DNA of 64,000 bases from Thermococcus peptonophilus (GCF_001592435.1 NZ_CP014750.1:310001-374000); one strand, 5' to 3'; positions 35,790-38,965 are shown, counted from the first letter of the stretch. Notes: generated from the sequence alone by a model not told the origin. Numbers and translations are program-made.

Positions 35790-36170
35790 TTACGTTTCCC
35801 TCACGGCATCCTCCTCGAACTTTTCGATCTCCTCTTTAGTGCCGACCCACACCACTATTACAGGCTCAACTGTTATCATTCCGTCCTTGATCATGGGTTT
35901 TATCTCGCATATCGCCTTCTCTATCTTGTGCCCCCTATCCACGACCTCCACAACCACTGGAAGGTCTGTTGAAAGCCTCATAACGTCGCTTGAGTGAACT
36001 CGGCTTTTCTTTCCGAAGCCATAGATTCCGCGGTAAACGGTCGCCCCGGCCATCCCCATCTCCCTGAGCTTTTCAACTATCGCCTTGTACAGAGGCTTCC
36101 CTTCCCAGCGGTCGTTCTCGCCGATGTATATCTTAAGCCGGAGCGTGTTCCAGTGTTCGACTTCTACCAT
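35790..36170 (-). CDS. DUF190 family protein (fluoride operon)
   Basis: The 126-residue product matches DUF190, a PII-like small protein family often encoded next to crcB. Typical parts are [67 protein letters not shown] and a C-terminal VEPVIVVW strand. The start is set by a near-perfect GGAGGTGA before ATG 36170. It begins four bases after the crcB stop and is the last gene of the riboswitch-controlled operon. A regulatory role for the exporter is plausible by analogy with PII proteins. Confidence 0.9.
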
Positions 36171-36174
36171 ATTT

Positions 36175-36546
36175 TCACCTCCGGGCCAGCATAAAGCCCG
36201 CAAATACTAACACAATTGTGATTATAACGTTTGCCAAAATGTTGAGGGTTGCAATTAGATACTCACGCTCACGCAGGAGCGAGAAGGTCTCGTAGGAAAA
36301 CGTTGAAAAAGTGCTTAGCGCCCCGCAAAATCCCGTTCCGAAGAAGGCCCTCCAGTCCGGAGGGACATCAAAGCCCCAGAACAGAATGCCGTAGAGATAA
36401 CCGAGGATGAGGCTCGCTATGCTGTTCACTATAAGGGTCCCTACTGGAAAATCGCCGTAAACGGGAAGCAGACCTGAGATGTAGAACCTCGCGACAGCCC
36501 CAAACGCTCCTCCAAGTGCTATCGCCATCACTATCCTGAGGTTCAT
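36175..36546 (-). CDS. crcB: CrcB/Fluc fluoride exporter
   Basis: This 123-residue protein has four membrane helices and is a Fluc fluoride channel, active as an antiparallel dimer. The diagnostic [34 protein letters not shown] and [18 protein letters not shown] blocks are intact, including the conserved Asn in helix 2 and the phenylalanine/threonine track in helix 3. The ATG at 36546 follows GGTGGT. It lies inside a six-gene operon whose leader carries a fluoride riboswitch, which confirms the function. Confidence 0.96.
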
Positions 36547-36573
36547 GGCACCACCACCGAAGGCCATTTCCTT

Positions 36574-36993
36574 TTAATCCTTACCCTCAAAGGAGAGGTA
36601 GTAGTGAATAAGCTCCTCAATATTGGTGTAGTCCTTCTCCGGCTTGTCGAGAATTTTCCTCAAACGTTTGTTCTCGGCTATCATCCCAGAGAGCTGTATT
36701 CCAAGGTTCTGGTTGTCGAGGACGAGGTAGTATGTCCTGAACCTTAGCGGGGACCACTTTCCCTCAAGCTCGTAAAGCTTCCTTTCAAGCTCCGATATCT
36801 CCCTTTCCAGATTCTCAATGTCTGTCTCTCCTTCCCTGAAGTCAATGTAATCGTGGAGGAGGATTATCCTCAGAACCTCATCAGGCCTGAAGCCGTAGCG
36901 TTTCGCCAGTTCCATTATCTGCTCAAAGGTTTCGTCTGGCACATTAAAGGTGACCTTCCTCCATCCGCGTTTAGACTTAACGACCACCTTCAT
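36574..36993 (-). CDS. Small protein with RHH-like N-terminus and coiled coil (fluoride operon)
   Basis: This 139-residue protein is not assigned to a named family. Residues 1-45 (WRKVTFNVPDETFEQIMELAKRYGFRPDEVLRIILLHDYI) look like a ribbon-helix-helix DNA-binding unit: a strand followed by two helices. A charged coiled coil follows (TDIENLEREISELERKLYELEG). The gene overlaps the previous coiled-coil gene by 17 bases and precedes crcB by 27 bases, so it is part of the fluoride-responsive message. It could be a local regulator, which is inference. Confidence 0.68.
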   Translation of the reverse strand: MKVVVKSKRGWRKVTFNVPDETFEQIMELAKRYGFRPDEVLRIILLHDYIDFREGETDIENLEREISELERKLYELEGKWSPLRFRTYYLVLDNQNLGIQLSGMIAENKRLRKILDKPEKDYTNIEELIHYYLSFEGKD

Positions 36994-37291
36994 TTTTGCT
37001 CTCCTCTAACTCCCTTCTCAGGCTCCTGTTTTCCCTGCTGAGCTCTTCTCTAACCTTCATTAGGAACTCCTTGTCCCTTTTTGCCTTCTCCTCAAGCTCC
37101 ACAAGCTCTCGATACCGCCCCTCCATCTCTTCAAGCTTTTCTCTGAGGTTGTTTCTGTGCTCAATCAGGTATTCAAACTTGAGAGCTTTTAGTGTCCTCT
37201 CAAGTCCCTCTAAGTCTTGAAACCGCTTTTCGATTTCTCTTCTGTTCTTCTTCACCTGCTCAAACTCCTCCGGAGAGAGGATTATCTCCAC
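36977..37291 (-). CDS. Small coiled-coil protein (fluoride operon)
   Basis: The 104-residue protein is almost entirely helical with heptad-like Leu/Glu/Lys/Arg repeats (RREIEKRFQDLEGLERTLKALKFEYLIEHRNNLREKLEEMEGRYRELVELEEKAKRDKEFL). No motif identifies a function. It overlaps both neighbours (10 bases upstream, 17 downstream), so translation of the three genes is coupled. Partnering through coiled coils with the next gene product is plausible. Confidence 0.65.
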   Translation of the reverse strand: MEIILSPEEFEQVKKNRREIEKRFQDLEGLERTLKALKFEYLIEHRNNLREKLEEMEGRYRELVELEEKAKRDKEFLMKVREELSRENRSLRRELEESKNEGGR

Positions 37292-37977
37292 TTCAAAAGC
37301 CCCCTCTTTACGTTTTTGGAATTTCCACGCCCTCCCAGTGTGATGCCAGTTTCAAGGCCTTTGAGGGCTTCTATCGTAAGAGGGAGTGATGAAGTTTCTT
37401 CTTTTGTAGGCTCCTCCTTAGATAGGTAGTCAAACTTATCTATGAAGGACTTCAGCCTCTCTCGTAGCTTTCTGAGCTTCTTCAACTGAATTTCCTTCAG
37501 GACAGTTGCCTTGTCATTATCCCTTCTAGCAACTTCGGAGAGCAGCATTTCGTAGTGCCTTCTGCAGAGTATCGCATTAGAGCTCTCGTAAACGGGAAGC
37601 AGTTCGTCTATTCTATCGGCAAAGCCCTCGATGGTGCTTCTTTCCTTCTCCCTAACCAACTCACAAAGGAAGCATCCTTCCTCCTTGGAGACTCTTCCAT
37701 CTTCAAGGAAACCTATGTACCTGGAGAGGACATCTTCGTAGATTATCGCCACTCCCAGCGGGCCAAGGAGGGGCTCTGAGTATGCCTTCTCGAGCGTCTT
37801 CCACGCGTGGTAAGTGCAGAGACCAAGACTTTTCCGGAACTTCTTTCGAACCTCTGGGTCGTTCACGTGCTCGTAGAGTATAGTCTCTATCTGGGATTCC
37901 TCGTAGGAGCGGAGGATTCTGCACACTGGACAGCCCTCGTCCATCGCCTCACGGAGATAAACGCCTATAAGATCCAT
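37282..37977 (-). CDS. DUF6062-like cysteine-rich protein (fluoride operon)
   Basis: The 231-residue product has four Cys/His motifs: EGCPVCRILRSYEES near residue 14, LCTYHAWK near 50, GCFLCELV near 100 and ILCRRHYEML near 135. These resemble the DUF6062 family, where such pairs could bind zinc or an iron-sulfur cluster. The C-terminal third is helical and lysine-rich. The ATG at 37977 has a weak GTGG-type site, and an overlapping GTG at 37986 touches the previous stop. It is the second gene of the fluoride-riboswitch operon. No function is known to me. Confidence 0.72.
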   Translation of the reverse strand: MDLIGVYLREAMDEGCPVCRILRSYEESQIETILYEHVNDPEVRKKFRKSLGLCTYHAWKTLEKAYSEPLLGPLGVAIIYEDVLSRYIGFLEDGRVSKEEGCFLCELVREKERSTIEGFADRIDELLPVYESSNAILCRRHYEMLLSEVARRDNDKATVLKEIQLKKLRKLRERLKSFIDKFDYLSKEEPTKEETSSLPLTIEALKGLETGITLGGRGNSKNVKRGLLKWR

Positions 37978-37986
37978 TCCAACCAC

Positions 37987-38853
37987 TCAGAGGTATCTCA
38001 TCATGGCATCTACCACTGCAAGTGCTCTGTATGTGTTCTGGAAGTTTGAGATACCAAGTTCAAGACTCCTCCTGAAGCCACCGTTGGAGTTCTGAAGCTG
38101 ACGTATGAACCAGATGTGCCTCCTCGGACAGGTTGGAGCTTCTTCCTGGAGCTCAAGCCCCCTTGTTGCATAGAAAGTCGGCTCAAGGTAGGGGGGAAGG
38201 CTGTATGGAACCTCCGTGAAGCCGCCCCAGTCGCCGCAGAGCTCACAGTTCCTGAAGTGGGGGCTCTTAGGCGGGCGATAGCCGAGCGCGTAGAGGGTGT
38301 GGAGGGCCTGATAGGTCATCGTGGTCGTTGGTTGTTTCACTCCGAACCCGTTGCCCATTCTAAATTTCATAACGAAGGCCCTTATCCTGTCCCTTTCCTC
38401 ATCGCTTATCGGCTGGCCAATTGCCTTGAACGCCTTAACGACCCAGTATGTAGCCTCAAGGGGCGTCGCAGTTCCGAACTCCTCACTGCCGCCAAGACCA
38501 ACGGCAAACTTGTCTTCGAGGGGATTGTACTTGGTGTAGACGATGTCCACGTGCTCCCTTGCGATGTCCTTCGCTCCAAGCATCGCAAGACCTTCAAGGG
38601 CCATTGCTATGGCCACTACTGCCGTCTGGGGCTGAATCGCTTTTTCAAGAAATTCGATCGTCTTCTCCTTCTCCGGGACTTCGAGGCCGAGCAGGTCGTA
38701 TATCTTGACTGCGTAGTATGTGTCGTTGACGTTGGTGTCATCTAAAACGCTCACGAAGCAGTAGCCTCCGTCCTCGTGTCGCCTCTTCTCGACGTACTCG
38801 AGGGCCTTCTCTACGTTAACAAAGCGTGCAAACTCATCAAGCTTCGAGCCCAT
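37987..38853 (-). CDS. Prenyltransferase/squalene-oxidase-repeat-like protein (first gene of the fluoride operon)
   Basis: This 288-residue protein resembles the alpha-alpha toroid of protein prenyltransferase beta subunits and terpene cyclases. Repeats of the type DGGYCF, GNGFGVKQPTTTMTYQALHTLYALGYRP and NSNGGFRRSLELGISNFQNTYRAL are visible. CELCGDWGGF adds a cysteine pair near residue 205 that could bind metal. There is no signal peptide. GGAGG lies before the ATG, inside a small hairpin below a fluoride riboswitch. Its link to fluoride is therefore regulatory and seen in sequence, while its activity is unknown. Confidence 0.78.
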   Translation of the reverse strand: MGSKLDEFARFVNVEKALEYVEKRRHEDGGYCFVSVLDDTNVNDTYYAVKIYDLLGLEVPEKEKTIEFLEKAIQPQTAVVAIAMALEGLAMLGAKDIAREHVDIVYTKYNPLEDKFAVGLGGSEEFGTATPLEATYWVVKAFKAIGQPISDEERDRIRAFVMKFRMGNGFGVKQPTTTMTYQALHTLYALGYRPPKSPHFRNCELCGDWGGFTEVPYSLPPYLEPTFYATRGLELQEEAPTCPRRHIWFIRQLQNSNGGFRRSLELGISNFQNTYRALAVVDAMMRYL

Positions 38854-38861
38854 CCTACCGC

Positions 38862-38872
38862 CTCCCTCGGAG
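38862..38872 (-). promoter_or_regulatory. Shine-Dalgarno hairpin below the fluoride aptamer
   Basis: On the minus strand CUCC-GAG-GGAG can form a four-pair hairpin that covers the GGGAGG ribosome binding site of the first operon gene. It lies six bases after the aptamer, consistent with control of translation by ligand-dependent folding. Confidence 0.5.
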
Positions 38873-38877
38873 TAGAA

Positions 38878-38938
38878 CAGGCGTCATCAGCCCTTTCGGG
38901 CGGTTCGGGCTCGAAGCCCCGGGCGGACGCCATCGCCC
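38878..38938 (-). promoter_or_regulatory. Fluoride riboswitch (crcB motif)
   Basis: The minus-strand leader contains all parts of the crcB-motif aptamer. It opens with GGGCGATGGCGTCCGCCC, whose ends form the first stem. It continues with GAACC, a GCCC-GAAA-GGGC stem (38891-38902 region) and the conserved CTGATGACGCCTG. The loop GGCGTC pairs with GACGCC (38880-38885) to make the pseudoknot. It closely parallels the Thermotoga petrophila aptamer. A 5-pair hairpin (38907-38920) is inserted between the first stem and GAACC. The controlled operon contains crcB and DUF190, which confirms the call. Confidence 0.93.
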
Positions 38939-38965
38939 GCGCTGGGTTATATAAAGCAACTTTAA

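Follow-up and report, generated by a model that had tools for sequence, protein, structure and literature searches.

Toroid first: a fluoride riboswitch of Thermococcales whose direct output appears to be a prenyltransferase-type toroid rather than the fluoride channel

Which gene does a fluoride riboswitch serve when the gene that follows it is not the fluoride channel? This question is raised by a locus of Thermococcus peptonophilus, which lies in a stretch of 64,000 nucleotides (NZ_CP014750.1:310001-374000) referred to here, at its full length, as the window. An aptamer of the fluoride riboswitch class RF01734 (38871..38946, minus strand) heads six genes on the same strand, named A to F. 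Gene A (37987..38853, minus strand) encodes a 288-residue alpha/alpha toroid of the prenyltransferase type, and crcB, the classical riboswitch-associated gene (PMC11139923), is fifth in order. The same riboswitch class holds the same first-gene position in T. kodakarensis, where the crcB RNA was "surprisingly" found upstream of TK0513, the equivalent of gene A by position, rather than upstream of crcB (PMC4247193); the window differs in having B, C, and D between the toroid gene and crcB. According to PMC8241225, which cites Speed 2018, the response of the T. kodakarensis riboswitch to fluoride has been shown by experiment, and the riboswitch went on to serve as a fluoride-inducible system. 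An earlier interpretation of the T. peptonophilus DNA, here called the sequence-only reading, had proposed a single operon in which four extra genes respond to fluoride along with crcB and its partner.

The aptamer assignment is secure, with a cmscan score of 50.1 bits against a gathering score of 34 (E 7.2e-12) and with both the conserved core and the pseudoknot strands present; it is the only RF01734 copy in a scan of the whole genome. The gene order was then compared across 94 Thermococcales genomes, 74 of them of good quality. RF01734 was detected in 88 of the 94, the toroid in 90 (and in 74/74 of the good-quality genomes), crcB in 82, and the DUF6062 gene, B, in 57. Read in 90 genomes, the window included, the toroid locus follows a simple rule: the toroid gene is the first gene after the riboswitch in 88/88 riboswitch-bearing genomes. 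Downstream gene content was counted on the 88 loci whose toroid gene is intact, which excludes G076 and G080, and a few of these gene lists end at contig ends. The full order A-B-C-D-E-F is present in 43/88, A-E-F in 14, and A-C-D in eight, with the remainder in smaller classes. The arrangement is therefore not due to chance, as the same order recurs in 43 loci and the rest are reduced versions of it.

The position of crcB is less constant. In a genus labeled g3, which is probably Pyrococcus, and in G020, crcB lies elsewhere on the chromosome, and A-C-D or A-B-C-D continues to follow the riboswitch; overall, crcB is found away from the riboswitch in this Pyrococcus-like genus and in some Thermococcus. 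G054 has a riboswitch-A-B-C-D locus, and crcB was not found in this genome, which is 99% complete. Since crcB is displaced or missing in these cases while the toroid gene always comes first, crcB is the looser neighbor: the toroid is the constant, and crcB a usual but not obligatory companion. In G080, the riboswitch is gone, the toroid gene is broken, and crcB is kept, which amounts to a co-loss of the riboswitch and the intact toroid. At two loci (L106 in G064 and L112 in G054), a membrane protein with a DUF835 domain occupies the usual place of crcB-DUF190.

The leader itself ties the riboswitch to the toroid gene. The 3′ strand of the aptamer, GCCUGUUCU (38874..38882, minus strand), can pair in register with the start-codon region of gene A, AGGAUGGGC (38848..38856, minus strand), which would be sequestered in the proposed OFF hairpin. 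In nearly all leaders, GCCUGUUCU could form pairs with AGAAUGGGC, the sequence about the start codon of the toroid gene. Across 37 distinct leaders, the share of the nine start-codon pairs that can form is 91% in register, compared with 38-61% when the strands are slid. The aptamer 3′ strand makes a mean of 8.2/9 pairs with the toroid start, compared with 5.6/9 with the other gene starts of the same loci, and 5.2/6 pairs still form when the three AUG columns are removed.

A second complementarity extends into the coding sequence. The Thermococcales aptamers carry a specific insert, GGGCUUCGAGCC (38908..38919, minus strand), which in the window is complementary at 12/12 positions to gene A codons 2-5. 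Against these codons (GGC UCG AAG CU), the insert is complementary at 11-12/12 positions in 75/88 leaders. Toroid codon 2 is GGC in 100% of the codons used, codon 3 is TCG in 95%, and codon 4 is AAG in 100%. By comparison, the top codon has a share of at most 72% in the 85 other conserved toroid columns whose amino acid has four or six codons. Such near-frozen codons provide strong evidence for a constraint on the RNA rather than on the protein. Insert and codons are both present in 73 leaders, the insert alone in none, the codons alone in six, and neither in seven, so that codon changes occur solely in leaders without the insert, and they arise at four or more points of the tree. Four clear double losses of insert and codons fall at separate places on the toroid-protein tree.

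As far as sequence can indicate, the switch appears to include the start codon of the toroid gene along with its codons 2-5. Taken together, the start-codon pairing, the insert complementarity, and the codon constraint argue that toroid translation is the direct predicted output of the riboswitch. The reading favored here, which we consider probable, is a translational fluoride riboswitch with the toroid as its direct output, genes B to D as accessories, and crcB-DUF190 as a neighboring export unit. In the absence of fluoride, GCCUGUUCU and the insert GGGCUUCGAGCC would mask the initiation site of gene A by pairing with its start codon and with codons 2-5. When fluoride is present, it would stabilize the aptamer pseudoknot, which uses an overlapping GACGCC strand, so that the AUG is freed and gene A is translated. 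Genes B to D overlap or are closely spaced, and would probably be translated by coupling after A. Whereas the gene order, its conservation, the complementarity, and the codon constraint are read from the sequences directly, the OFF/ON switch and the coupling are inferred, the former from the pairings.

Several observations weigh against this reading. G012 keeps an intact toroid gene although its aptamer has decayed to the 3′ part and crcB is absent, which indicates that gene A may have a role beyond fluoride. Conversely, G076 has a riboswitch ahead of a disrupted toroid gene. A tree-based sign test of insert against codons yields two to three pairs, all concordant and none discordant (p 0.25); this phylogenetically paired comparison has too few independent events for significance. 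Finally, crcB in the window begins at most 27 nucleotides after D, and may here depend on the riboswitch transcript.

The three genes that follow the toroid differ in how closely they belong to the locus. Gene B (37282..37977, minus strand) is a DUF6062 member (PF19538, 72.7 bits vs. a cut-off of 27) with two CxxC...CxxH motifs, in which C16, C19, C54, and H57, and C102, C105, C138, and H141, are conserved; the protein probably binds metal through these motifs. Its AlphaFold2 model is of moderate quality (predicted local distance difference test, pLDDT, 77) and gave no match in Foldseek, and no mention of DUF6062 was found in the literature consulted. PDB sequence searches with B and with D returned no usable relative. 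Gene C (36977..37291, minus strand) encodes a small coiled-coil protein that matches no family above its cut-off. Gene D (36574..36993, minus strand) encodes a coiled coil with a possible ribbon-helix-helix head and has weak NCBIfam matches only. It scores 15 bits against the ORF56 and aCcr1 families, below their cut-offs; both are recognized as ribbon-helix-helix families. No relatives of D were found in the viral contigs searched.

The C-D pair often accompanies the toroid, and a paralogous pair, C2-D2, is found elsewhere in nearly all Thermococcales (G000:C1:500020-500744, L198, is one example). C2-D2 adjoins an AlkA-like DNA glycosylase and a P-loop kinase, or other genes, with no fluoride riboswitch. 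The idea that C and D are specific to fluoride was rejected on the strength of this near-universal pair, and they look like a reusable module, perhaps a regulatory one. The sequence-only reading had counted four extra genes and had asked whether these lie mostly away from fluoride riboswitches. They do not in the case of A and B, which stand as genes of this locus; for C and D the objection falls only in part, given their near-universal riboswitch-less paralogues, and they are better described as belonging to a pair of families of which nearly every Thermococcales genome has another copy. The sequence-only reading's suggestions for function, protection of metal-dependent enzymes or a regulatory complex, gained nothing either way from the comparison. 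Two small coiled-coil genes also lie just upstream of a second, hydrogenase-linked riboswitch, described below, at L175, L178, L179, and L182; one of them (76-78 amino acids) is related to the C-terminal half of D. A similar short D-like protein precedes crcB in L151, L163, and L165.

These patterns bear on an alternative that we regard as unlikely, in which C and D, together with B, form a fluoride-induced regulatory complex: the ribbon-helix-helix head of D would bind DNA, for example at a separate crcB promoter, with C as its coiled-coil partner. The joint occurrence of C and D in most loci and as a paralogous pair elsewhere, the weak ribbon-helix-helix matches of D, and the D-like proteins ahead of the hydrogenase riboswitch and of crcB in some genomes are consistent with such a complex, but about 14 loci have A-E-F only and the paralogous pair sits beside the glycosylase and other genes without a fluoride riboswitch.

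The last two genes form the export unit. Gene E (36175..36567, minus strand) is crcB/Fluc, which encodes the fluoride channel (PF02537, 103.4 bits; TIGR00494, 97.6 vs. an equivalog cut-off of 80.45), and gene F (35790..36170, minus strand) is a PII-like DUF190 gene, COG1993 (PF02641, 137.6 bits vs. 23.4; PF00543, 25.3 bits). With these, cmscan and the profile searches confirmed the aptamer, the six minus-strand genes, and the gene calls of the sequence-only reading. Gaps between the genes from A to F range from -17 to about +9 nucleotides, apart from D-E, where the gap is 6 to 27 nucleotides depending on the choice of crcB start. A candidate B recognition element and TATA box for the operon, GAAATTTTTAAAG, can be read at 38960..38972 (minus strand), from which a start site would follow, and a TATA-like string occurs in the same upstream zone in 82/88 loci. 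On the other side, a divergent archaemetzincin (peptidase M54) gene occupies 39030-39737, and its intergenic region is common with the riboswitch promoter in most Thermococcus.

In the loci read, DUF190 lies 8-24 nucleotides 3′ of crcB wherever both are present. TATA-like strings stand ahead of crcB in 44% of loci, compared with 8% for B, 3% for C, and 1% for D; the scan is unreliable for gene F, whose upstream region is crcB coding sequence. In T. kodakarensis, a separate primary start site serves crcB, TK0514 (PMC4247193). As judged from sequence, crcB-DUF190 may be a separate unit that is often separately promoted. The prediction that all six genes rise together is thus doubtful for crcB, with its own start site in TK0514, promoter-like sequence upstream, and a location elsewhere in several genomes. 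When genomes were searched for a dedicated CLC-F that might serve in place of crcB, most of those tested carried one CLC protein, crcB-bearing ones included.

The locus could also be an ordinary fluoride-export operon, with a single riboswitch-driven mRNA whose key product is CrcB/DUF190 and with A to D as passengers or minor helpers. Its appeal lies in the presence of crcB in the same-strand cluster in most loci, in the classical association of crcB with this riboswitch (PMC11139923), and in the short D-E gap of the window. We nevertheless consider it improbable, given that A and never crcB comes first after the riboswitch, that the switch appears to incorporate the start of A, that riboswitch-A persists in genomes with a displaced crcB or none (the g3 genus, G020, and G054), and that crcB of T. 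kodakarensis is transcribed from a start site of its own (PMC4247193). The toroid-centered reading reverses the picture: going by the leader sequences, the gene that belongs to the riboswitch is that of the toroid, and crcB is its neighbor.

What the toroid protein might do is suggested in part by its fold. Both the profile score (PF00432, 45.7 bits vs. a cut-off of 26.5) and the predicted structure (AlphaFold2, pLDDT 90) place A among the alpha/alpha toroids, and Foldseek finds the model closest to the beta subunits of Rab geranylgeranyltransferase (RabGGTase) and farnesyltransferase (FTase) and to class II cyclases (template modeling score about 0.7, 13-18% identity). A resembles prenyltransferase beta subunits and class II terpene cyclases in PF00432 match and predicted fold, and differs from them in an identity of about 15% and the lack of the DxDD motif, which was not found in translated A and which is the mark of a class II terpene cyclase. 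The zinc-binding D/C/H triad of FTase is apparently replaced by E224/T226/N273 in A, as judged from an alignment by motif; the E/T/N positions so aligned are invariant or nearly so. With the zinc triad seemingly replaced and DxDD absent, neither classical chemistry is expected for A. About one third of its residues do not vary in a comparison of 12 diverse members, and many of these residues are polar and stand where inner helices begin, which in the model suggests a working cavity. No relatives of A were found in the viral contigs or plasmids searched.

Hydrogen fluoride enters the cell through the membrane (PMC11139923). Because of this and of the fold, an isoprenoid- or lipid-directed, membrane-related enzyme is favored for A, as a guess for which the support is weak and which we hold doubtful. 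Speculatively, the polar cavity could act on an isoprenoid- or lipid-linked substrate and so harden the membrane against hydrogen fluoride, or otherwise offset fluoride stress. From its sequence context, the toroid looks like the main product of the fluoride response in Thermococcales. The fuller proposal is more tentative: that it would be a primary effector separate from export, probably an isoprenoid- or lipid-linked enzyme, whose first five codons lie in the expression platform.

Outside the order, the Thermococcales toroid profile gave no match at E 0.001 in 16 other Thermococci genomes. A PF00432 search of the same 16 found a small full-length toroid only in G098, which belongs to another family. 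This sole PF00432 gene (59 bits) lies in a fluoride-riboswitch locus ordered crcB-DUF190-riboswitch-GTPase-toroid, and its product aligns with A end to end (hhalign 96.9%, E 1.3e-10, 23% identity). The GTPase gene, which is dynamin-like, starts within about 30 nucleotides of the riboswitch, upstream of the toroid gene (L189, G098:C25). The G098 toroid is an occurrence in a fluoride locus independent of Thermococcales; it is a single case and not proof. A place for the first four genes in the fluoride response, as had been proposed, gains support that is strongest for A (first in 88/88, start in the switch, and G098) and weaker for C and D, which have their paralogous pair. That A is instead a general housekeeping toroid, for example of isoprenoid metabolism, merely down-regulated without fluoride and only indirectly linked to it, would suit its retention in G012 without aptamer or crcB and its high conservation (mean pairwise identity 74%, close to the 77% of crcB), but is quite unlikely given its disruption in G080 and G076, which shows it to be dispensable, the intact riboswitch ahead of it everywhere else, and the toroid in the G098 fluoride locus.

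A second RF01734 copy is present in 15 Thermococcus genomes and precedes a hyfC-type gene in 10/10 loci that could be read through. At L172-L182 (in G022, G041, G043, G046, G047, G049, G050, G054, G059, G065, and G067), this second, shorter aptamer lies directly upstream of a hyfC/NuoH-type membrane hydrogenase operon, a context consistent with the fluoride riboswitches reported in 2010 with formate hydrogen lyase operons (Weinberg 2010, PMC2864571). Unlike the toroid riboswitch, it has no insert, and the arrangement at its end, with the start GUGACGCC, is another one. In about half of the second riboswitches, GGGCGAAGG replaces GGGCGATGG near the fluoride site, so their ligand response may differ. 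The hyfC gene start, GTGACGCC, repeats the aptamer pseudoknot strand GACGCC (L172-L181), which suggests, at the level of sequence, a different expression platform based on strand competition.

The adjacency of the riboswitch and TK0513 in T. kodakarensis is already known; the present comparison contributes the rule that holds across the order, the constraint on the codons, and the C-D paralogy. No earlier description of the order-wide invariance of the toroid, the codon-complementary aptamer insert, or the codon constraint was found in the literature consulted. Known defenses against fluoride consist mostly of export, alongside additional copies of the enzymes that fluoride inhibits and control of pH. 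Across this archaeal order, the most tightly kept riboswitch target is an uncharacterized toroid and not the exporter, which means that a further resistance function is probably to be found. Since T. kodakarensis is genetically tractable, the question posed in 2014, why the switch precedes TK0513, can be tested directly. To our knowledge, few translational riboswitches have been proven in archaea, and an aptamer insert that matches the codons of the regulated gene would be a clear model for them.

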